64,000 bases of DNA from Stentor roeselii. Its lineage: Eukaryota > Ciliophora > Heterotrichea > Heterotrichida > Stentoridae. The notes beneath the pieces were generated by a model. It ran no database searches. It was not told the origin of the DNA and saw only the letters and a program-made list of their open reading frames with translations. This document shows, piece by piece, positions 13,884-62,945 of this stretch. The translations under genes were made by a program, and so were the position numbers. Positions within the stretch are counted from its first letter, which is position 1. Every line of letters starts with the position of its first letter. The DNA lies in NCBI GenBank assembly GCA_006503475.1, contig RSEH01000101.1, positions 89,527 through 153,526 on the forward strand, given 5' to 3'.

Positions 13884-15500
13884 TTAAAGCTTATTATCTT
13901 TACTTGAGATGTAGTCTGCCTTCGCTGCTTGTTCCGACAGCTTTGCTTTAAGGTAATTGTCATGGCAATTTTCTATCATTTTTCTGATTGTCGGGCCGGT
14001 GTACCTGTTAAATTCCACATTGTTGTGAAAAACATTTGACATGAAATCGACGACGTTATCCCATTTTTTCGTTACTGAGTAAGCGATGATTATAGTGTTT
14101 ACTGCGAAAGGTGTACAAAGTTTTTTGTCTTTAACTATCAGGTCTTGGATTTCTGTTATTATTTCTAATGCGGACTCTCCTAGGACTGAGCACATCCTGA
14201 GAATAGCGACGATGATTTTAGGAGTGTAGACGAAATTTGGATGAGCTGTGATCATTTTGTAAAGTCTTAAAGCCTTGAATGAGTCTTTTAGTTCTTCTTG
14301 GGCTTTGAAACAGACTTCAATTGATTCGAGTGAATAGTTTTCTTCTTCTAAGATTTTCATAACCATTTTGTGTGCCTCTTTTATTTCTCGAATGGATATC
14401 AGGAACTTTAAGTAGTTCATCGTGAAATTACTGAGTTTTTCTGATTTTTCTTCAGGAGTTGAACTGTTAGTTATAATCGCATCTTTAATCATTTTCAGAA
14501 GGAGCTCGTGAGATAAGTCATCATTGGCATCGGGTCGATCAATGGACATGAAAAATTTATCAATATATAGATGAATGAGTTCAAAACAGGGATTTGCACC
14601 ATTTTTCAAGGCCAAACTAAGAATCTCTTGAATTCTATAAAAGAATTCCTGATTATACCGATAATAATTCAAAACAGTAACCCAGACTCTATGAGGAATA
14701 GTTGCATTTTGTTTACATGAATAAGTAATCACAGTATAAAGTGCTCTTGGCCACTTTCCAGAAATACATTCTTCAACAAGATGCATTACCAGGTCCTGTG
14801 AAGGAATATGATTATAATGAGCCATATGATCAAGAACCCTTCGAATAAGTCTAACTCCAGTTTCCACATCTCCAACTCCCTGAACTAGGTCACAATATAT
14901 CTGGTTATTAAGTGGTCCATAAATAAAAGGACTGTGCTTAATCGTTCCTTCTTTAGTGATTCTTTGAATGTCTCCAAAGTCATCATCCGTAGGTGTGAGA
15001 GGCTTTGACCAGATAGATCGAAGAATAGAAGAAAATGTGAGTCCTTTTGATTTGATCTGCGGTGAGATTATCCAGGTTTTTTTCAACTTGAGTAAAAGAT
15101 CGATAGATTTCAAAGGGTTTTCTATAAGGTTCTTTTGTTGGTAGTAGTTGCGGTTTAAAGTACTTTTTGGAGATTACAGTAAAGTTTCTTCTAAACAGGT
15201 CTGTAATTCTATAGGGTCTTTGGCCGTTTCTAACTTGCTGATTATCTGAGAGGAATGGAGGAACTCATCTAATGGTGAAAGGAATTCTCTTGGTTTTTCT
15301 TTTATTATTGGTTGTTCTTTTGCTTTTAGGCTAGCTTGAGCTTCTAGCTCTACTTTTGCTTTTGCTTTTGCTTTACGCTCGATTTCTTCCTAGGTATAGA
15401 GTACTGCTTGTTGAAGGTAGGTCTTGAATACGTTTTCGAAGTCGTCGCCGAATCTTCGGAAAGGAAGAGCTAGCTTAAATAATCTTCGAATTGTGAACAT
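13884..15500 (-). CDS. Mitochondrial helical-repeat (PPR-like) protein, 3 exons
   Basis: The exons are 15405-15500, 15178-15389 and 13884-15162, joined by two 15-nt introns to give 528 residues. Without splicing the reading frame breaks at a TAG and at a TAA, both inside the introns. The N-terminus MFTIRRLFKLALPFRRF is a strong mitochondrial presequence. An Ala/Lys/Glu-rich helix follows, then long alpha-helical pairs with PPR-like spacing (for example SGKWPRALYTVITYS and RLYKMITAHPNFVYTPKIIV). PPR proteins bind organellar RNA or belong to mitoribosomes; which role applies here is not visible. The stop is 22 nt upstream of the cyclase ATG. Start in ATAAATAAATATG. Confidence 0.8.
15163..15177 (-). 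other. 15-nt intron 2 of the PPR-like gene
   Basis: Sense sequence GTAATCTCCAAAAAG, with A at position 10. Removing it joins ...EETLL to TLNRNYYQQK in frame; retaining it gives an immediate TAA. It is the only intron here ending in AAG. Confidence 0.85.
15390..15404 (-). other. 15-nt intron 1 of the PPR-like gene
   Basis: Sense sequence GTACTCTATACCTAG, with A at position 10. Its own terminal TAG is in frame and would stop translation after 37 codons if retained. Confidence 0.88.
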
Positions 15501-15621
15501 ATTTATTTATGGTGAGGGTTGGGATTGTTAACAGGAGGAATTTTAATCAAAGTATTTTAGTGATTGTTTATGTTACAATCAAAACTACTCCATCCTGCTA
15601 AACAACTTCCTTCATATTAAT

Positions 15622-38691: not shown

Positions 38692-40524
38692 CTAACTCTT
38701 GACTATCTTGATATTTTTTATCTGCAGCCTAAATATTAAGAGAGTAATGGTTGCAAGGACAACAATATGCACAATACTAATTAAAGAGTTCTCAATGATA
38801 CTTCCATCATAGTTATATCTATCTTCAGGTTCATAAACAACATCATCATCAAGGTCCAAGTCATCGAACTCATTCTTCAACATAGCATTTCTCAAAAAAT
38901 AATAAGGTGTAAGAAATCTCAGCCAATTAATAAAATCAGGAGGACTTTCAGCGTCAGTAATAAATCCTCCTAATAAAAGCATTCCCATTGAAATCGTTGA
39001 TGAAATGGGCTGTGATAATATCGGAGTCACTGCCAGAACTCCTCCTAACAAGCCAGAGACGAATCCGACTGTATAGGTCAGCATAGATATCAAGATCATA
39101 TTCACAATTTTATATGCACCATCCTGGTTGAGGTCAGCAACGAAATAAGTGCTAAAAATCATAACTAATATCGTGAAGATCATCAATGGGATTTCGAATA
39201 TTGACTTAGTGAATAAGTAAAGGTAAGGCGAGTAAAGACATTCTTTTATCTCTTTCAAAACAATACTCCTCTCATTCGCCACATTCATCGAAGCATTGAA
39301 ATTCGGGATAAAAGTGAATATAAAAAAGATGAGAAGTATGAGTCCTCCTCTATCTTCAACACCTTCACTATCATAATCCAAATTATGAAACAACATATCG
39401 AACAATATTGCAAATAAAAAAGTTTGAAAAACTTTAACAGTGCAACAAAATGGATTCCTTCTGATGTTGATAGTTTCTCTCCAGACCATCCAAAGAAAAC
39501 TCTTAAAAAATTTAGTTTCAAAATTCAATTCTTTTGCTGAGTTTCCAGCAACATCCTTGTTAATATCATCCCAGATGCTTTCCCCCAAACTATCGTACTT
39601 TTCACTTAAAATTTTTATAGTTTTTAATTCTTCTTCAGTCAAATTGTTCCTGTCTTCAATTCTGATAATTTTAATAAAGTGCTCTGGAGGGTTAACATGA
39701 TCACCAATTTGATATCCTATATCATTGAAATAATCTACTGATTTACTTGCCCTGCCTTGGTAGACAAATCTTCCTTCTTGCATCAAGCAAAGTCGGTCAA
39801 TCATTTTGAACATGTCAAAACTTGGCTGATGAACAGTTGTGATGACAGCGACTCCTAAATCAGCTGCAATTTTCAAAGACTCAAAAACACTTTTCGCAAG
39901 ATAACTATCAAGACCTGAAGTGGGTTCATCTAAAATAAGCACTGATGGAAGTAGCATCATTTCTGAAGCAATAACGACTCGTTTTTTCTCTCCTCCAGAT
40001 AAACCTTTCACAATGTTTCCACCAATGATGCTATGTTGGACTTTAGTGAGTTTGAACTGGGTTAAGACTTTATTGATTCTTTCTTTGATTTCTTGTTTTG
40101 TGCCTGAAACTCGAAGATTCAAGTTGAACTTCAAGAATTCGAAAGGACTTAAAAACTCGAATAGAATACTTTCTTGAGGAATGAACCTGATAATGCTTGA
40201 AGTGTTGATGTTATCTGTATTTACTGTATTTAACCACATGTCACCTTTTATTATGAATTTCGATTCCATGACCAATTGATTTGAGAGTAAGGAAAGTAAT
40301 GTTGTTTTACCGCAACCTGATAGGCCCATAATTGCTAGAATTTCTTGAGGGTTTGCAAAGCCTGAAACACTTTTAAGGATATTCAGTGGTTTATCTGATG
40401 AATCGATTGAAAAGCTTAGGTTTTCCCATTTCAAGACGACTTTCTGGATTTCATCTGCTGTTGCTAAGGTAAGAGGTTGTTCTTCGGCGAGTAAGTGAGA
40501 AGTTTCTTTCTGACGATCTGACAT
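38692..40524 (-). CDS. ABCG-family half-transporter, 610 aa
   Basis: The nucleotide-binding domain comes first (ABCG order): Walker A GLSGCGKTTLL, signature VKGLSGGEKKR, Walker B LILDEPTSGLDS and the H-loop TTVHQPS. Six membrane spans follow in the C-terminal ~270 residues. ABCG half-transporters dimerise to export lipids, sterols or xenobiotics. It is closely similar to the product at 56265-58115 (long shared blocks such as QHSIIGGNIVKGLSGGEKKR), so the two are paralogues on opposite strands. The start lies in TTATAAATG. Confidence 0.95.
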   Translation of the reverse strand: MSDRQKETSHLLAEEQPLTLATADEIQKVVLKWENLSFSIDSSDKPLNILKSVSGFANPQEILAIMGLSGCGKTTLLSLLSNQLVMESKFIIKGDMWLNTVNTDNINTSSIIRFIPQESILFEFLSPFEFLKFNLNLRVSGTKQEIKERINKVLTQFKLTKVQHSIIGGNIVKGLSGGEKKRVVIASEMMLLPSVLILDEPTSGLDSYLAKSVFESLKIAADLGVAVITTVHQPSFDMFKMIDRLCLMQEGRFVYQGRASKSVDYFNDIGYQIGDHVNPPEHFIKIIRIEDRNNLTEEELKTIKILSEKYDSLGESIWDDINKDVAGNSAKELNFETKFFKSFLWMVWRETINIRRNPFCCTVKVFQTFLFAILFDMLFHNLDYDSEGVEDRGGLILLIFFIFTFIPNFNASMNVANERSIVLKEIKECLYSPYLYLFTKSIFEIPLMIFTILVMIFSTYFVADLNQDGAYKIVNMILISMLTYTVGFVSGLLGGVLAVTPILSQPISSTISMGMLLLGGFITDAESPPDFINWLRFLTPYYFLRNAMLKNEFDDLDLDDDVVYEPEDRYNYDGSIIENSLISIVHIVVLATITLLIFRLQIKNIKIVKS

Positions 40525-50541: not shown

Positions 50542-51112
50542 TTAGGTAGTTTTCGGATTTGTTTGGAGTAATAACTATTTCGACTTTGAAGATTATGATT
50601 ACTTTTCTTAATTTAATTAGATGATTAACTATAAATTGCCTATTCCTGTTCAAGATCCTTGTAATTCACAACACAAGAGAACCCAAACAAAAAATTTTTG
50701 GTTTTTTGATAATTCACACTAAAAAATACAGAAGATAGATTATGAATAGTTATAATTCAATCAATTCTATGAGGATTTAATCCAAGCAACGTAAGGAATG
50801 CTAAATCCAATCCTTGCTTATTTCATGTTATGCATCGAGAGAATCCAAATAAATTTTCTTCGTTAATCCAGACATATTTTCACAAAATACTAAAAAATTT
50901 CCTAAAATATCTTATTCACTCCAACCAAAATCATTTTTCCACAAATTCAAAATTTTTCAAGTTCCGCCAAAACAATATCAAAATCACCAAAAAGCCTTCT
51001 TTCAAAAATTGATAGAAAATAACCCAAAAAAAACTAAATAATCAAATAAATAAAACAACAGTACATGAGAGTATATTATCCTAATACAAATATTACTGAC
51101 TACTGATTATAA
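50542..51112. other. Intergenic region, 571 nt
   Basis: AT-rich DNA between the kinase and a small plus-strand gene. A 60-codon ORF (50830-51012) is low-complexity and was not accepted. Nothing else was seen. Confidence 0.55.
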
Positions 51113-51247
51113 ATGGAAGAGTATATTATTACTGGGCTGTCTCTCCTGATGCCTTGCTTACTAGCTATCTACGGCCACTACGCCAAAAAGAAATGCGATG
51201 AAACACTAGTCTACATCAAGACTCCGGTCAAATATTTCACGAGTTAA
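51113..51247 (+). CDS. Small single-span membrane protein, 44 aa
   Basis: The ATG lies in TTATAAATG, exactly the start context of larger genes here, and the ORF stands out as more GC-rich and non-repetitive than the surrounding DNA. The product begins MEEYIITGLSLLMPCLLAIY, a likely membrane span, followed by a basic segment (GHYAKKKCDE) and a short tail ending VKYFTS. No family is recognised; small subunits of respiratory or translocase complexes look like this, but that is only a comparison. Coding status rests on context and composition. Confidence 0.6.
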   Translation: MEEYIITGLSLLMPCLLAIYGHYAKKKCDETLVYIKTPVKYFTS

Positions 51248-52160
51248 GGGATTTAACCTGCTATATCATAATCTAATAAAAACTCACGATTAATTCAAGT
51301 TTCTTCATCAAATCCACTAGTCTTCTCCATTACTCTAAAATTTTTTTCCCTTTTTCCAAAGTCAAAAACTTTTTTTAGGTCATTGTCAAAAAAAATTTTC
51401 TTGAAAAGATTTTTTGGATTTTTTCTTTGATTTGATTGAATTTGAAAGATTTGAAAACGATTTGTTTTGAAAAGAACGGAAACAGACTTGATGATTTTAG
51501 GTTCTTTTTAGATATATCTTGACAAGGGAGCATTGTTAAGTCTTGATATGATTTGATTATTATTAGAGTAGATGGAAATAGGGGAAGACCTTTAATTTTA
51601 AGAAAGGGGTTGGGAAGAATTAGATGTGATTGCGATTTCCGCCATGATTAGAATATTATAGTCAGTTCTAGAATTTTAATTATTATTGGCCAAAATGAAT
51701 TAATTTAACATAACCAGAAATATGATGAAATCAGTAATCACGTGTTATACAAGGCTTAGTAATTTATTTTTTATTGGATTGTCTTGGTTGTGCCACTTTT
51801 AAGTCTGCGAACTACATAACTTAATAAAAAAACTTGAGTATAACCAACTTATATCTGAAAAACACAAGCATAACATTCCATCAAGTAATTAATTAAAGTA
51901 ATTATGTTAACCTCAGCCATTAAACATAATAAAAAATCCCAAACCAAACATCTGCTATCATTAAGGTTAAACATTTTTCTAGTTTCATAAAAACTCCCCA
52001 AAATAAATCAAATACCAAAAAACTCCAAAATTCTTAAAAATCTTTCAATAATCAATCATTTTTCAAAACTAAAAAAAAATAATGAATCACATCCAAAATA
52101 TATCCTCTCTTCCACCTCAAAAACCCAAAAAATCAAGAAATAAACTATTTTCCCATCCTA
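51248..52160. other. Gene-free region, 913 nt
   Basis: AT-rich DNA between the 44-residue gene and the convergent Romo1/Mgr2-like gene. No ORF with a start-box, no convincing tRNA or snRNA and no repeat was found. A somewhat less AT-rich patch (~51630-51680) has no recognisable content. Confidence 0.5.
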
Positions 52161-55288: not shown

Positions 55289-56264
55289 TTATATGTGGTA
55301 CTGTGAAAACTGTTTCTTCATTGGAATATGGAAGTTTTGAGGAATTAGATTTTTTTTTTTGAAGTAGGAGGATTTGAGGGTTTAGCTTTGGAGAGGTTTA
55401 AATTTAGGAGGATAGAAAATATTTAGGGGTCTTAAAGCTTGCATATTGTTTTAGGTGGTTTTTTCATGAATTTCTTTACACTTCAAATGGATTGAAATGT
55501 TTATTATTTTGAGGAAAAACTTTCTGGGTGTTATATTTGTACAATGCAATTGGTATAAAGATTATATATTTATTTGTTAAAAATTTTTATGGGTTAAATC
55601 TTTGGTTAAAATTTTATGATGATTATAAAAGCTGTTTTAAATTTAGTATTGTAATTGAAATACTTATAATCTTATAGCATGAAAAGAATATAGCTGGAAA
55701 TATGATTATCGATCTAATGATGTTAAAGATGAATATGTCTTCATTCTTACAACGTAATTTCTCAAATAAAATTGTGAAAAAATTTGTAAATACTAAATTT
55801 GATGCTCTATGGTCATATATAATGTTTAAATGCGAATAAACTTTTCATTAAATATTGGCTTATAGGGTATATAATATCTAATCTCAAAAATAATTGGTAT
55901 CAAGCAAAATCTATTTATAAATTTTCAGGAATTCTTATTTATCGATACTTCTTACAATTATTTAACCTACAGGTTTATTCTAGTGCATAGTAGATATCAA
56001 AAATTGTTTTTTTTTATTATACTGCTAGAATGATAAATAATATTGTGATAAATACTAATATAAACTGGATTATACTTGGATAAAATACAATTTTTAAAGT
56101 TTCTAACTAATAATTACTCTAAGATACGTCAATAAACAACAGAATATTCTAATTTCTTTACAGATCCATCTTTGAAACTATAACTTTTCGAAATTCCCTA
56201 CTTGACTCAGAAATTCTTAAATTGTTAAATTTAACGAAATGCAGTCCAAATATTTCACCATAAA
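55289..56264. other. Divergent intergenic region, 976 nt
   Basis: Very AT-rich DNA between two divergent genes (kinase, ABCG). No ORF, repeat or RNA signal was seen. It is long for this genome, but nothing explains the length. Confidence 0.55.
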
Positions 56265-58115
56265 ATGGAAGACAATCAGAATGAATCCTCAAACTTACTG
56301 AATCCCAAAGATCCCGAATCATCAAATAATAATGATACGATCCAAAGAGTAGTCCTTCGATGGGAAAATCTCAACTTTTCTCTCTCATCAAGTTCAATCC
56401 AAATCCTAAAAAATGTTTCAGGTTTTTCAAATCCTGAACAAATCTTCGCTATAATGGGTGCATCAGGTTCCGGAAAAACTTCTCTTCTTTCCTTGCTTTC
56501 AAACCAGTTGATGATGCAGTCAAATTTCAACATCGAGGGGGAAATTTATGCGAATTCCTCGAAATTTGAAGAAATTGATACATCAAATTTAATTAAATTC
56601 GTTCCTCAAGAAAATATTTTATTTGAATTTCTGACTCCGAAGGAATTTCTTACGTTTAACTTGAATATGAAAAGTTTAAGTTCAAAGCAAGAAATTAAAG
56701 CAAAGATTAAAACTATCTTAGAACAGTTTAAATTAACGAAAGTTCAGCATAGTATCATTGGGGGAAATATTGTGAAAGGTTTATCAGGAGGGGAGAAAAA
56801 AAGACTTGTTATTGCTGCGGAAATCGTTGTACTTCCATCAGTTCTTATTTTAGATGAACCGACTTCAGGACTTGATAGTTATTTGGCGAAACTTATTGTT
56901 GAGTCTTTGAAAACTGTTGCTGGATTAGGAGTCGCTGTTATCATGACTATTCATCAGCCTGGTATTGAAATTTTTCAAATGATTGATCGACTTGCTTTGA
57001 TGCAAGAAGGAAGGTTTGTTTATCAGGGAAAAGCGGATAAAGCTTCGGATTACTTTCGAGATTTAGGGTTTTTTATTCCTGAACATATAAATCCTCCTGA
57101 GTTCTTCATTAAAGTTATTAGGATTGAGAATCGGTTCAATTTGACGGAAGAAGAAAAAAGGATTTCTAAACTATTGATTGAAAAGTATCAAGATTCTATT
57201 GAGTTTATTTGGAATGATATTGATAAAGAATATTCGAAAAGTGAAATCAGAATAATTAAAAGTAAACAACCGTTTTTGAGAAGTATTTCGTGGTTGTTTT
57301 GGAGAGAATTTCTAAACTTCAAAAGAAATCCTCTAATGAACACTTTTAAGATGACTCAAATATTTATATTCGCTCTAATCTGTGATTTACTCTATTATAA
57401 AATAGGATACGGTAACAAAGGAGTAGAAGAAAGAAAAGGAATGTTGATATCTTTCTTATTCATTTTTAACTTCATCCCCGCATTTACCATCTCAATGAAT
57501 CTTGCTTATGAGCGTAAAATTGTATTAAAAGAGCTAAAAGAAGGCATGTACGGCATAAATCCTTATTATTTGATTAAACTAGTCATAGAGTTGCCCATGA
57601 TATTTCTTGCACCTTTTATCCTAACCATTTGCACATACTACATCGTTGATCTCAATCAAGAAAGTACAAACAAGATATTCATTCTGATTTTAATCGGAGA
57701 AGTCACTTATCTCAATGGTTTCGCCATCGGTTTATTAGCAGGATCCGTTTCAATCTCTCCAATTCTTGCAAATGTTTATGGAGCCTCCATTTCAACTTGT
57801 TTCATGCTTTTTGCTGGATATTTTCATGACCCTGAAAGTGGACCAAGTTCGACTTCTTGGTTGAGGTTTGTTGTTCCTCATTATTATTTAAGGAATGCTA
57901 TTCTGAAGAACGAGTTTGATGATTTGAATCTTGATGATGAGGTTGTTTATATGCCTGAAGATAGATATAATTATGATGGAGAAGTCGCTGATAATACTTT
58001 GATCACTTTTGTGCACTTTTTTGTGATTTATTTCTTGGCAGTTGCTTGTTATTCCATACAAATACATTATTCCAGGATAAAAAAAAATAGTTTTTATGGA
58101 AATAATACTAAGTAG
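56265..58115 (+). CDS. ABCG-family half-transporter, 616 aa (paralogue)
   Basis: Same ABCG order as the gene at 38692-40524: Walker A GASGSGKTSLL, signature VKGLSGGEKKRL, Walker B LILDEPTSGLDS and MTIHQPG, then six membrane spans. The NBD block from QHSIIGG to the Walker B is almost unchanged between the two, and the extracellular C-terminal loop also matches (FDDLNLDDEVVY here, FDDLDLDDDVVY there). The membrane domains differ more, so substrates may differ. The start lies in CATAAAATG after a long AT-rich region. Confidence 0.95.
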   Translation: MEDNQNESSNLLNPKDPESSNNNDTIQRVVLRWENLNFSLSSSSIQILKNVSGFSNPEQIFAIMGASGSGKTSLLSLLSNQLMMQSNFNIEGEIYANSSKFEEIDTSNLIKFVPQENILFEFLTPKEFLTFNLNMKSLSSKQEIKAKIKTILEQFKLTKVQHSIIGGNIVKGLSGGEKKRLVIAAEIVVLPSVLILDEPTSGLDSYLAKLIVESLKTVAGLGVAVIMTIHQPGIEIFQMIDRLALMQEGRFVYQGKADKASDYFRDLGFFIPEHINPPEFFIKVIRIENRFNLTEEEKRISKLLIEKYQDSIEFIWNDIDKEYSKSEIRIIKSKQPFLRSISWLFWREFLNFKRNPLMNTFKMTQIFIFALICDLLYYKIGYGNKGVEERKGMLISFLFIFNFIPAFTISMNLAYERKIVLKELKEGMYGINPYYLIKLVIELPMIFLAPFILTICTYYIVDLNQESTNKIFILILIGEVTYLNGFAIGLLAGSVSISPILANVYGASISTCFMLFAGYFHDPESGPSSTSWLRFVVPHYYLRNAILKNEFDDLNLDDEVVYMPEDRYNYDGEVADNTLITFVHFFVIYFLAVACYSIQIHYSRIKKNSFYGNNTK

Positions 58116-58423
58116 GTTATTGGATAAGTAGTTTAATTTGAAATATCTTTCAAACTTTAAGGAGTCTTGGTTAAATTTCAAGTAATTTAAATTTTAAGAT
58201 TTTTTTTTGTGAAATAATTTGATTGAAATCGTGATAAGATGTCATTAAATAAAAAGTAAGTAAATAATCATAGAATAGATGAAACTGGTATTGACTCAAT
58301 GTTTAATTTAAGATATTTCAGTTTATTTGAGGTAAAGATATGATAAGAGTTAGCCTTTGAACTTTATTTGATTTAGAAAATTACTTATATTATTAATAAT
58401 GAATATAAAATGCTTTATTTGAT

Positions 58424-58430
58424 AAAAAAA
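58424..58430 (-). terminator. T7 run, candidate Pol III terminator of RNA copy A
   Basis: Seven A on the plus strand (T7 on the minus strand) directly after the 3' end of the GC-raised island. Confidence 0.5.
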
Positions 58431-58666
58431 TAAGAAACCCAGCTAGTTAGCGTAATCTTTTGTCTAGGAAAAATTTCAGATTCTGACCACTGGTTACCAC
58501 CAGGCTTATTAAGCACTTCTACCTACAGAGGTATCTGCTTATCCTTCTCTCGACTAATCCTCAACCAAAGGCAATCCTTAATTGGTAGACTTGAACCTGA
58601 TGCTGTTTATTGAGTGGTCATCGCTCGTCAACGAACGTTTTGGGCTCTTTCAGGAGGGAGTGTCAG
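58431..58666 (-). ncRNA. Candidate structured ncRNA, copy A (unknown family)
   Basis: This 236-nt minus-strand segment aligns with 59492-59730 on the plus strand. Shared blocks are GACCACTCAATA (plus 58608-58619), a TTCGTT before it, and a 52-nt block at 58493-58544 with 37 identical positions over the 51 aligned. Internal hairpins include ACCT-CTGT-AGGT, CTGGT-GGTA-ACCAG and AAGG-ATTG-CCTT, and GACCACT can pair with AGTGGTC near the 3' end, closing a multibranch fold. A T7 run follows. It contains GGTTCAAGTC, like a B box, but does not fold as a tRNA. No match to U1-U6, U3, SRP, RNase P/MRP or 5S was recognised by eye. Confidence 0.58.
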
Positions 58667-59299
58667 TTATATGGTATTAAGTGGGGATATATGATCAAGT
58701 AATTAAAAATGGAAGATGAAAATTTTCTTAAAGTTATCACTACAGTGAAGAAGACTATAATTATAAAAAATGTTTGATTAAATATGGTTAATAGATTCTA
58801 TGAAGGGGACTGTAATACATTAGAAGAAATCCTTTGTGTAGTGGTTCATTGAAATTATATTAATTTCATATATTATAATTATTTAAATCTATTATTTTGA
58901 GATGACAGAGAGATTTTAAAGGAATAAAACGAGTTTATTTCTATTGCTTATTTTGCTTTATTTCTATTTTAAGTACCCAAGTAATTGTTTTAATTGAAAT
59001 ATGATTTATCACGAACGAATTAAATGAAAGATTTATAATCCCAGATTTTCATTTAAAATCTCATTCGAGTCCACCAGTAATTCCATTACTATATGTTTTC
59101 ATAATTTTTCATATATATTATGCTACATTTTCAAATCACATGAAATTTATAATTACATAAATTCCATTCTATATGAAATTTGAGTATCATATAATCATTT
59201 CTAAATAATAATTATTTAAGAATATTTTACATCGAAATTATTAATATCATTGAATAAACATTTCATAATACACTAAAAATTTAGCAATTATAGCTCATT

Positions 59300-59485
59300 T
59301 CTGTTTTGAAGTAGAGTCCTTCTCAATACCTGTTTTTTTGAGTTGGGCTGTTTTCGTCGTCCAATAAGTACCCTGAGGACGCCGTGTGTGGGCTGGTCAC
59401 CCGATATGCGCAGTGATATCTAGTTTTTGAGCTGGGATTATTTTTATCCTTGCTCTCAAAATGATAGGATGGGCGTCTTCCAGTA
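59300..59485. ncRNA. Candidate structured RNA island, strand unclear
   Basis: A GC-raised stretch immediately upstream of RNA copy B with no counterpart next to copy A. It can form a 9-bp long-range helix (GAGGACGCC at 59375-59383 with GGCGTCTTC at 59472-59480, one G-U), enclosing a hairpin with stem TTTTGAG/CTCAAAA (59425-59431, 59455-59461). It may be a separate RNA or a promoter/leader for copy B. The family is not recognised. Confidence 0.4.
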
Positions 59486-59491
59486 TAATAC

Positions 59492-59730
59492 CTGACCACT
59501 GACTATTTCTCCAAATCTACGCAAAATTTCGTTAATGAGCTAAGACCACTCAATACTCAGCTAAAGCTTCGAGATAATCAATCTAGGGTTAGATTAATTG
59601 AGAATTCATCCAGATGAGGATAAGTTATTTCCCTGTGGGCGGCAGTGATTAAGAAGTCTGGAGGTAACTGTTGGTGTTGGAGAAGGATCTGAATTCTCGC
59701 GGAAGCGAGAGTCAAGATAAAGATAATAGA
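59492..59730 (+). ncRNA. Candidate structured ncRNA, copy B (unknown family)
   Basis: A 239-nt diverged homologue of copy A in opposite orientation, 0.8 kb away. Both copies start near CTGAC and end just before a T run (T6 here), with almost the same length. Conserved blocks are TTCGTTnnnGAGC, GACCACTCAATA (59544-59555), and 59618-59668 starting GGATAAG and ending GGTAAC. The ACCT/AGGT hairpin of copy A is CCC/GGG here, including a compensatory T-A to C-G change. A terminal hairpin TCTCGC-GGAA-GCGAGA (59695-59710) closes the 3' end. Conservation of structure and length supports a functional RNA, probably Pol III transcribed. Confidence 0.6.
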
Positions 59731-59736
59731 TTTTTT
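59731..59736 (+). terminator. T6 run, candidate Pol III terminator of RNA copy B
   Basis: TTTTTT directly after the terminal GGAA-loop hairpin and a short AT-rich tail. Confidence 0.5.
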
Positions 59737-60220
59737 GTTTTTGTTAATTATTATATAAATCTTTATGCTATTTAATATAGTAAATATTTTTTTAGATTAA
59801 TCTGAATTTTTTATATGATAAGCTTGCGAATTAAAACAATCAACTATTGATTTTAACAATACAGGTATGTCACTAGATAATAATCAATATTTTGAATAAT
59901 CTTCGATTTCTACTTAATAGTTGAATACCTATTAAGTATTTCATGAATAAATTAACAAACACTTTCAGGATGATTAATTAGATTTCAGAATTAGCTATAA
60001 TCTAAATTTAATACTTACTTTAAAATTTATTAAAAATTTTTATATATTTAATGATATATTCCGAGGTGAGAATAACCTCAAAGCAAATCAATAATAATAT
60101 CAAAAGAATCTTAATACTAACCTTTTATTAATTTTATCACATTCAACGAATTCGAAACCAAGAATTCAGCGAAAATCATATTATTTATAAAATTGTTGTT
60201 TATCAAAAAATCATAAATTT

Positions 60221-60323
60221 CTTAATCAATTAATTACTAAAAATCATCAATCGCGAATTTTTCATCAATGCTTAATCAATAAATTACTAAAAATCATCAT
60301 CAATTGCGAATTTTTCATCAATG
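60221..60323. repeat. Tandem duplication of a gene's 3' end (50 and 53 nt)
   Basis: Copy 1 is 60221-60270 and copy 2 is 60271-60323; both run from CTTAATCAAT through TTACTAAAAATCATCA to TTCATCAATG. Copy 2 holds the last codons and stop of the E2-variant gene (ending EKFAIDDDF); copy 1, downstream of the stop, encodes the same ending with one Asp codon fewer. Confidence 0.9.
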
Positions 60324-61750
60324 CTTAAATTTTTTGGTTTTTGCGAAGTCTTCAAAACCTCTTCATTCAAACCTTTCACATCTTGTCCCTTATTGAGTCC
60401 TTCAGAGATCGCCGGTTCAATAGACCCAGAAGAATATGCCGATTCTTCAAACCCTTGAAAATTTTTTTCAATAGATTCATCTTTAACATCATCAGAATCA
60501 CTACTAATTTCTAATTCAGGATCTTGAGGAAGGGTATAAGATAATTCCTCACAAAACTCATCTTCTACAAAATTCTTTTCTTTTTCTACTTTTTCTTCTT
60601 CCTTTGCACCTTCAGGTAAACTGACTGAAGATATTTGTGTATCAATTTCAGAATCCTTTAAATTACTGATTTTCTGTGAACCTTCCACATTTTTTCCTTG
60701 TAAAACCGCAGAAACCCTTTCATTCAGCAGAAGTTTATGCATTTTTTCAAGGTATACCTGAAACTGCATATCTCCAAAAGCAGTAAAGTACTCAATAACA
60801 TGCTGGTAAAGTTCCATTAAATGATTCACAATATTAAGACTAAGATTCTGTTCAAGATGTCTTTCAATCAAGTTGATTTCTTCTAAAATTTCTCCGATTT
60901 TCATGTTTTTGATAGTTTTTCCAGTCATTTCTTCTTCTTTAAATACCTTTTTTTCACTGAGTTCTTGGTTAAGCTTGTTGATTCGTTTTATGTTTGCTGA
61001 GATAAGGTCTATCAACTGGTTTGCCTGTGGAACTTTGAACTGCTGGCAAAAAGCTGGATTTTCTCCGATTTTTTTCCATTCGAAGGTTAGTCTGTCGGAC
61101 TCGTTGATGGCTCTTTTGATTGAGTTTAAAGACTGAAGAGTTGCCCAGCTGATTAAGTATCCAACATCGATTATTTGTGTATTTAATTCAAAAATCAATA
61201 TCAAAGTATGAGTTACTACAATCATTCTTTCTTTCATGTATCGGGTGTTGTTTAGATCATTTTCAGTGCAGTAAAAATATGACATTAGCTCCTTTCCGTA
61301 CCACAGGTCTAGAAGATATGGACTTCCCAAATGAAATTTGCCGTAGTTTTTGTTAAAGAGTTCCGGTTGATTTTTTAAAATGCTTTCTTGGTAAAACTTT
61401 GGAATTTGTCCTACAATGTCTGCACATGTGATGCTTGGTGACCATCTAGTACTCAAGAGCTCTTCAATCAAATCTCGTCCATCAGCAACAGAAGGAAACC
61501 CAGAAACCGTCTCACAGAAAAGTTTAGGACTTTGAAACGGGTACTTTCCTTCTAAATACAAATCAAAATGCACCTCATCAGCCGAAAGAACTTTAGACTT
61601 AAAAATGATTCTGATGATGACTCCAAAAGGAGCTTTTCTGGGAAAAACTTTGATTCCAGGAAGAGTAGAAAGAATTTTGATTTCTGATTAACTCTCACCT
61701 TTTTCAAATCTCTTTTGTTGTATTTCACTTGAGTGAGATTCAGAGGCCAT
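60287..61750 (-). CDS. E2-variant (UBC-like, no active-site Cys) protein, 2 exons
   Basis: The exons are 61699-61750 and 60287-61683, separated by a 15-nt intron; 482 residues. The N-terminal ~145 residues have an E2 fold: FGVIIRIIFKS, FDLYLEGKYPFQSPKL (the YPFxxP motif) and TRWSPSITCADIVGQI. The HPN tripeptide is replaced by FPS and the stretch after DG has no Cys (GRDLIEELL), so it cannot form a thioester; it is a UEV-type ubiquitin-binding or scaffold protein. Helices follow to ~residue 330, then an acidic, Ser/Glu-rich tail with possible CK2 sites. The ATG lies in GTAAATAATG. Confidence 0.85.
61684..61698 (-). other. 15-nt intron of the E2-variant gene
   Basis: Sense sequence GTGAGAGTTAATCAG, the second GTG-type intron; A at position 10. 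Splicing joins QQKRFEK to EIKILSTLPG and adds the N-terminal helix expected of an E2 fold. Confidence 0.9.
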
Positions 61751-62642: not shown

Positions 62643-62945
62643 GTTTACATGAAAAATTAGTTCTGGGTATTGGAAAAATCATTTTCCATTTTTCATTCCT
62701 TCAAAACTCATTCTCACTTTGAAAATTTAAACAATTCATAAAGTCCAGTTAAAACTTTACTGACAATAAATCCAATCAAATCAACCCTTTTCCGAATACC
62801 CAAACCCCAACTATTCCTCATAACCCAAAGGCTCTAAAATGATCTTCACTCTCTACTCCCCCTTCACTCCAACCTCTCAATACACCTCCATCATCTCAAC
62901 TTAAATCATTGGCGCCATGTAAAAATCCAAATGGCGCCAATATAA
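62643..62945. other. Divergent intergenic region, 303 nt
   Basis: Shared upstream DNA of the basic protein and R2 genes. The proximal R2 side carries the GGCGCC inverted repeat; the rest is AT-rich, with a C-rich plus strand near 62840-62900 and no other recognisable element. Confidence 0.6.
62908..62941 (+). promoter_or_regulatory. E2F-like inverted repeat upstream of R2
   Basis: ATTGGCGCCAT (62908-62918) and ATGGCGCCAAT (62931-62941) form a perfect 11-bp inverted repeat with a 12-nt spacer. Each arm contains TTGGCGCC, matching the E2F/DP consensus, and ends in CCAAT or ATTGG. It abuts the TATAAATG start box. R2 genes are classic E2F targets in animals and plants. Confidence 0.7.

Follow-up and report, generated by a model that had tools for sequence, protein, structure and literature searches.

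Two inverted, diverged copies of a candidate small non-coding RNA gene in Stentor roeselii

Introduction

In the 44.4-Mb genome assembly of Stentor roeselii (522 contigs), two related stretches of DNA lie inverted and head-to-head between a 626-aa open frame (56235–58115, plus strand) and a 466-aa open frame (60287–61687, minus strand). The question raised by this locus is what, if anything, the two stretches encode. The DNA analysed here, which we call the window, is 64 kb long and forms the right end of its contig (89527–153526); its long open frames are complete under the standard code. An original prediction, made from the letters alone, took minus 58431–58666 and plus 59492–59730 to be paralogous Pol III genes for a structured RNA of unrecognised family. 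Both copies are GC islands, mostly 30–48% GC in 60-base windows versus about 10–30% in their flanks.

The 626-aa frame is ABC transporter-like, as judged by eye rather than by domain search. A 610-aa frame at 38692–40524 (minus) appears on the same visual basis to be a related ABC transporter; only the frame at 56235–58115 adjoins an RNA-like copy.

Results

The two copies are homologous at the positions at which they had been proposed. Local alignment of the minus with the plus copy gave a score of 159, compared with 51.4±6.7 after shuffling, and global alignment gave 142, compared with 26.4±10.6; in neither case did any of 1000 dinucleotide shuffles reach the observed value. Within the 64-kb window, blastn aligned the copies at 69% over 143 columns (E 1e-9). 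Across the whole alignment 153 of 242 columns are identical (63% identity), the indels are of 1–2 bases, and conservation is highest in the middle and lowest at the ends. The similarity extends from a shared AATACC block through to the T runs and includes the stretch upstream of CTGAC. The CTGAC region, predicted to be a common start, is thus truly similar, but the similarity reaches further upstream into the AATACC block. Likewise, the flanks, predicted to be dissimilar, are so only beyond that block and not between it and CTGAC: further out, blastn at the sensitivity used detected no similarity, and comparison of the 300 bases upstream of each copy returned a best local score of 31, in AT-rich DNA. 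The coordinates of the copies and their features are collected in Table 1.

Table 1. Positions in the window of the two candidate RNAs and of their associated features.
Feature	Positions	Strand	Basis or remark
Proposed RNA, minus copy	58424..58651	-	Homology; start at 58651 predicted from TATA-like spacing and terminal stem; T7 at 58430-58424
Proposed RNA, plus copy	59513..59736	+	Homology; start at 59513 predicted likewise; T6 at 59731-59736
TATA-like block TTAATACC	58673..58680	-	29 nt before predicted start; AATACC common to both copies
TATA-like block TATAATACC	59484..59492	+	29 nt before predicted start; AATACC common to both copies
Weak match to the genome's upstream element	58701..58715	-	-64 of predicted start; score 7.3
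Block GACCACTCAATA	58608..58619	-	Identical in both copies
Block GACCACTCAATA	59544..59555	+	Identical in both copies
Conserved block AGTGNTTAANAAGNCTGGNGGTAAC	58493..58517	-	Alignment and genome pattern search
Conserved block AGTGNTTAANAAGNCTGGNGGTAAC	59644..59668	+	Alignment and genome pattern search
Predicted 3' hairpin, minus copy	58454..58482	-	Outer stem AATCT/AGATT, probability 0.77; holds internal T5
Predicted 3' hairpin, plus copy	59687..59718	+	ATCT/AGAT and ATTCTCGC/GCGAGAGT, probabilities 0.88 and 0.98

Could the copies be what is left of protein-coding exons, degenerate or broken in frame? Their GC content, above that of the flanks, would agree with this. However, no open frame fits either copy, stops occur in every frame, the small indels break the frames, and the mismatches between the copies fall 34, 28 and 27 by codon position, with no rhythm. 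We consider this origin very improbable.

Nor do the copies match any of the RNA families searched. Rfam covariance models found no family at curated cut-offs in the 64-kb window, and a permissive scan of 58380–59800 gave six matches with E values of 0.37–5.3, far under their cut-offs and none spanning a copy. The absence of an Rfam match supports the original prediction on this point. Five standard RNAs, each without a match at the pair, exceeded their cut-offs at other places in the genome: RNase P on contig C97 (87.5 bits), RNase MRP on contig C402 (70486–70685, 73.1 bits), SRP RNA on contig C288 (95.5 bits), U3 on contig C402 (81101–81295, 56 bits) and U2 on contig C18 (142.6 bits). In a control set of 14 prokaryote genomes, SRP exceeded its cut-off in 2 of 14, and not one genome gave RNase P, MRP or U3 over the cut-off. 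The RNase MRP and U3 RNAs lie on one contig, about 10 kb apart.

ARAGORN predicted no tRNA or tmRNA gene in the window. Visual inspection also took in the motifs of group I introns, hammerheads and snoRNAs, and Rfam gave no such match in 58380–59800. A box-B-like block (GGTTCAAGTC in the minus copy, GCTTCGAGAT in the plus copy) was also judged by eye; the plus version departs from the consensus and no box A was seen, so we give the block no weight.

Ciliate telomerase RNA (RF00025) is a Pol III-type RNA that ends in a T run and is similar in size to the pair. In contrast to it, the pair has neither a template nor an Rfam match. The longest match to a (CCCTAACA)n template is 5 bases in the minus copy and 4 in the plus copy, equal to that in random stretches of the window. 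Searching the genome with RF00025 returned one place, whose score of 23.8 bits (E 3.1) is below the cut-off of 52. The (CCCTAACA)n repeat itself occurs at 621 places in the genome, among the listed ones contig starts such as those of C26, C40, C48 and C56, and permutations of CCCTAACA make up the telomere repeat reported for the heterotrich Blepharisma (PMC9942806). No literature combining Stentor with telomerase RNA was found. Among the literature listed on ciliate Pol III and non-coding RNA, Heterotrichea, Stentor, Tetrahymena and vault RNA, a limited test, nothing on the pair was found.

Vault RNAs resemble the pair in being small RNA genes with T runs. They differ in that the Vault model has 99 positions and finds nothing in 58380–59800 at E values up to 10. 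Elsewhere, on contig C179 at about 65311–67038 (loci L054 and L055), there are three distinct Vault RNA matches of 23–25 bits (cut-off 34, E 0.05–0.19), possibly a Vault RNA cluster. Two of the three lie just downstream of an upstream element described below, and a nearby locus, L053, shares the element and, on visual inspection, resembles them. On contig C391 (L057, 1369–1481, minus), beside another occurrence of this element, a U11 match reaches 38.3 bits (E 0.0003), where the cut-off is 39; since Rfam places U1 and U11 in one clan, a diverged U1 is an alternative.

Since these Vault-like and U11-like matches stay under their cut-offs, Rfam models can miss RNAs in this genome, and the pair might belong to a known family that has diverged beyond its model. 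We hold this to be improbable: the five standard RNAs covered (RNase P, MRP, SRP, U3 and U2) are all accounted for elsewhere, a telomerase template is missing, and the permissive scan gave nothing better than E 0.37.

How many copies does the genome contain? Three patterns built on conserved blocks singled out only the two known ones in the 44.4 Mb. The first, with 18 places and up to 3 mismatches, occurred at 250 places in the genome versus 226 in a control; with no mismatch it hit 2 places, both of them the known copies, with one mismatch none, with two 17, and the remainder had three. A sequence profile, applied to 28 of the 250, recovered the two known copies and nothing else. Besides the two copies, the second pattern hit a single place, with 3 mismatches, that the profile did not match, and the third pattern hit nothing further; the control gave 0 for each. 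The profile gave 0 matches on 24 other loci, including all 10 from viral contigs, and the prokaryote genomes gave 0 matches to the pair, though prokaryotes and viral contigs are unlikely homes of ciliate relatives. The count of two is a count by sequence patterns, which diverged copies could escape; a DNA search of the genome misses one copy when started from the other, which places distant copies beyond its reach. The many transposon-like copies that had been named as a refutation were not seen, the three patterns finding only two places.

These counts bear on the possibility that the pair is untranscribed DNA, for instance left over from an ancient inverted duplication or forming both arms of a foldback element, with similarity and GC content that owe nothing to RNA. 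The inverted arrangement would suit such an origin, as would folding and consensus values near chance (see below). Against it, only two copies were found by the three patterns, the agreement between the pairing maps described below speaks for RNA, and no target-site duplications were seen, by eye only. The outer ends are moreover the least conserved parts, unlike terminal inverted repeats; in this and in copy number the pair differs from a foldback element or MITE, with the proviso that distant copies could escape the patterns. We regard an untranscribed remnant as rather unlikely, but as a real rival.

The ends of the copies offer further hints. The predicted T7 and T6 ends are present in the minus and plus copies, respectively. 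T6 occurs with a frequency of 0.045 per 22-base noncoding stretch of the window, so that such a run in both copies by chance would have a probability of about 0.2%. The minus copy also has an internal T5 (58473–58469), while the plus copy has no earlier T4; the RNase P RNA gene of the same genome apparently ends at T4. Because the CTGAC block lies between the TATA-like box and the predicted terminal stem, the RNA, if transcribed, probably begins further downstream than first proposed, by 15 nt in the minus copy and 21 nt in the plus copy.

With such starts, the pair would have its TATA-like box at nearly the same distance as the RNase P gene of this genome, which has TATAAA 28 nt before the 5' end of its RNA. 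The pair also resembles the RNase P and SRP RNA genes, which are of the gene-external type 3, in its size class of 200–300 nt, its lack of coding capacity and its T-rich 3' end. Unlike the pair, those two genes carry ATCCCATATTAAATC at about -60. When the upstream regions of RNase P and SRP were turned into a search pattern, the genome had 13 occurrences versus 6 in the control. The 13 include the RNase P, SRP, U2, U11-like and Vault-like places, and 6 of them are without an Rfam assignment. A near match occurs at -57 of U3, and none at MRP. At the minus copy the match is weak, 7.3 compared with 21.0 at RNase P, a value reached by 0.5% of 3000 random intergenic draws; near -60 of the plus copy there is none (best score -1.3). 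Pol III transcription of the pair is a possibility, against which stand the lack of a strong upstream element and the internal T5 of the minus copy.

Folding of single sequences was close to chance. The minus copy had z -1.00, with 33 of 200 shuffles folding as well, and the plus copy z -0.04 (95 of 200). In a fixed-column consensus fold the proposed strand gave z -0.30 (115 of 300) and the reverse strand did better, at z -1.71 (22 of 300); the one exception was the 3' tail, with values of -2.41 (8 of 300) and -1.91 (15 of 300), respectively. By eye, the predicted folds nevertheless share a layout with shifted helices: a terminal stem, a long-range helix pair that encloses hairpins, and a 3' hairpin. 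The predicted terminal stem, next to the T run, pairs 58649–58641 with 58441–58432 in the minus copy and 59513–59519 with 59727–59733 in the plus copy, where the pair probabilities are only about 0.2. Two pairs of the 3' hairpin (columns 214–227 and 216–225) differ on both sides between the copies, U-A pairs in one facing C-G pairs in the other, in keeping with the compensatory change described for one hairpin in the original prediction.

A sliding test measured the agreement of the two pair-probability maps, with pairs allowed to shift by a number of columns, against column shuffles. On the proposed strand, at tolerances of 0, ±1, ±2, ±3, ±4, ±6 and ±8, the observed agreement was reached by 58, 53, 27, 13, 5, 2 and 1 of 280 shuffles; on the reverse strand the counts were 31, 42, 33, 42, 58, 96 and 112 of 280. 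An earlier run at 0, ±1, ±3 and ±6 had given 34, 32, 3 and 0 of 150, and 15, 21, 27 and 56 on the reverse strand. The maps thus agree beyond chance when sliding is allowed, on the proposed strand only, and at chance level without it. Folding energy outdid the column shuffles whichever strand was taken (10 and 13 of 280). We read the sliding test as moderate support because it was devised after the folds had been seen and several tolerances were tried. Support for a conserved structure is moderate at best, and covariation statistics would need more than two sequences. The structured RNA of the original prediction is moderately supported by the map agreement and not by single folds or the fixed-column consensus.

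Discussion

We think that the pair probably represents two paralogous genes, whose products would be non-coding RNAs of about 225 nt from a family without a name, although our confidence goes only a little way beyond even. The copies are homologous and non-coding, have no Rfam match, end in T runs, number two in the genome by our patterns and agree in their pairing maps when sliding is allowed.

The other real rival is that only one copy functions as an RNA gene, its duplicate being in decay or put to another use. Here the evidence disagrees on which copy would work: the internal T5 of the minus copy would stop Pol III early, yet this copy folds somewhat better and has the weak upstream element that the plus copy lacks. 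Neither copy has lost its T run, TATA-like block or core blocks, which argues against decay, and we judge this alternative unlikely.

Were both copies genes, as we favour, an inverted duplication would have given rise to two genes that have since diverged. Transcription would begin about 29 nt past the TATA-like box and stop at the T run. A short terminal stem would close the ends of the RNA, and the 3' hairpin would adjoin the U tail. A U tail at the 3' end of an RNA is the usual binding place of La-type proteins. The conserved core blocks (GACCACUCAAUA; AGUGNUUAANAAGNCUGGNGGUAAC) may bind a protein or another RNA, so that the transcript would serve as the RNA component of a small RNP. What is said here of transcription and polymerase, of the RNA ends, and of the RNP and its function is read from sequence. 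A more speculative proposal, which we put forward as somewhat short of an even prospect, is that the pair belongs to a small-RNA family restricted to heterotrichs, with no described counterpart, and that its two diverged copies are kept for separate RNP roles. If transcribed, the pair would constitute a new small-RNA family, missed by Rfam models that do recover the tested standard RNAs of this genome. Having two diverged copies next to each other opens structure, promoter and a possible division of labour to direct tests.

Immediately upstream of the plus copy, at 59310–59490, lies a second GC-rich island (up to 57% GC). It shows a small folding advantage over shuffles (z -2.1, 7 of 200), has no Rfam family and no further match in the genome, and holds on its minus strand a 59-aa open frame without Met. 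It may be a further RNA or belong to the plus transcript. More GC-rich stretches outside frames of at least 80 aa are found at 15281–15540, 51081–51260 and 62741–62900, with a composition like that of the RNA-like islands.
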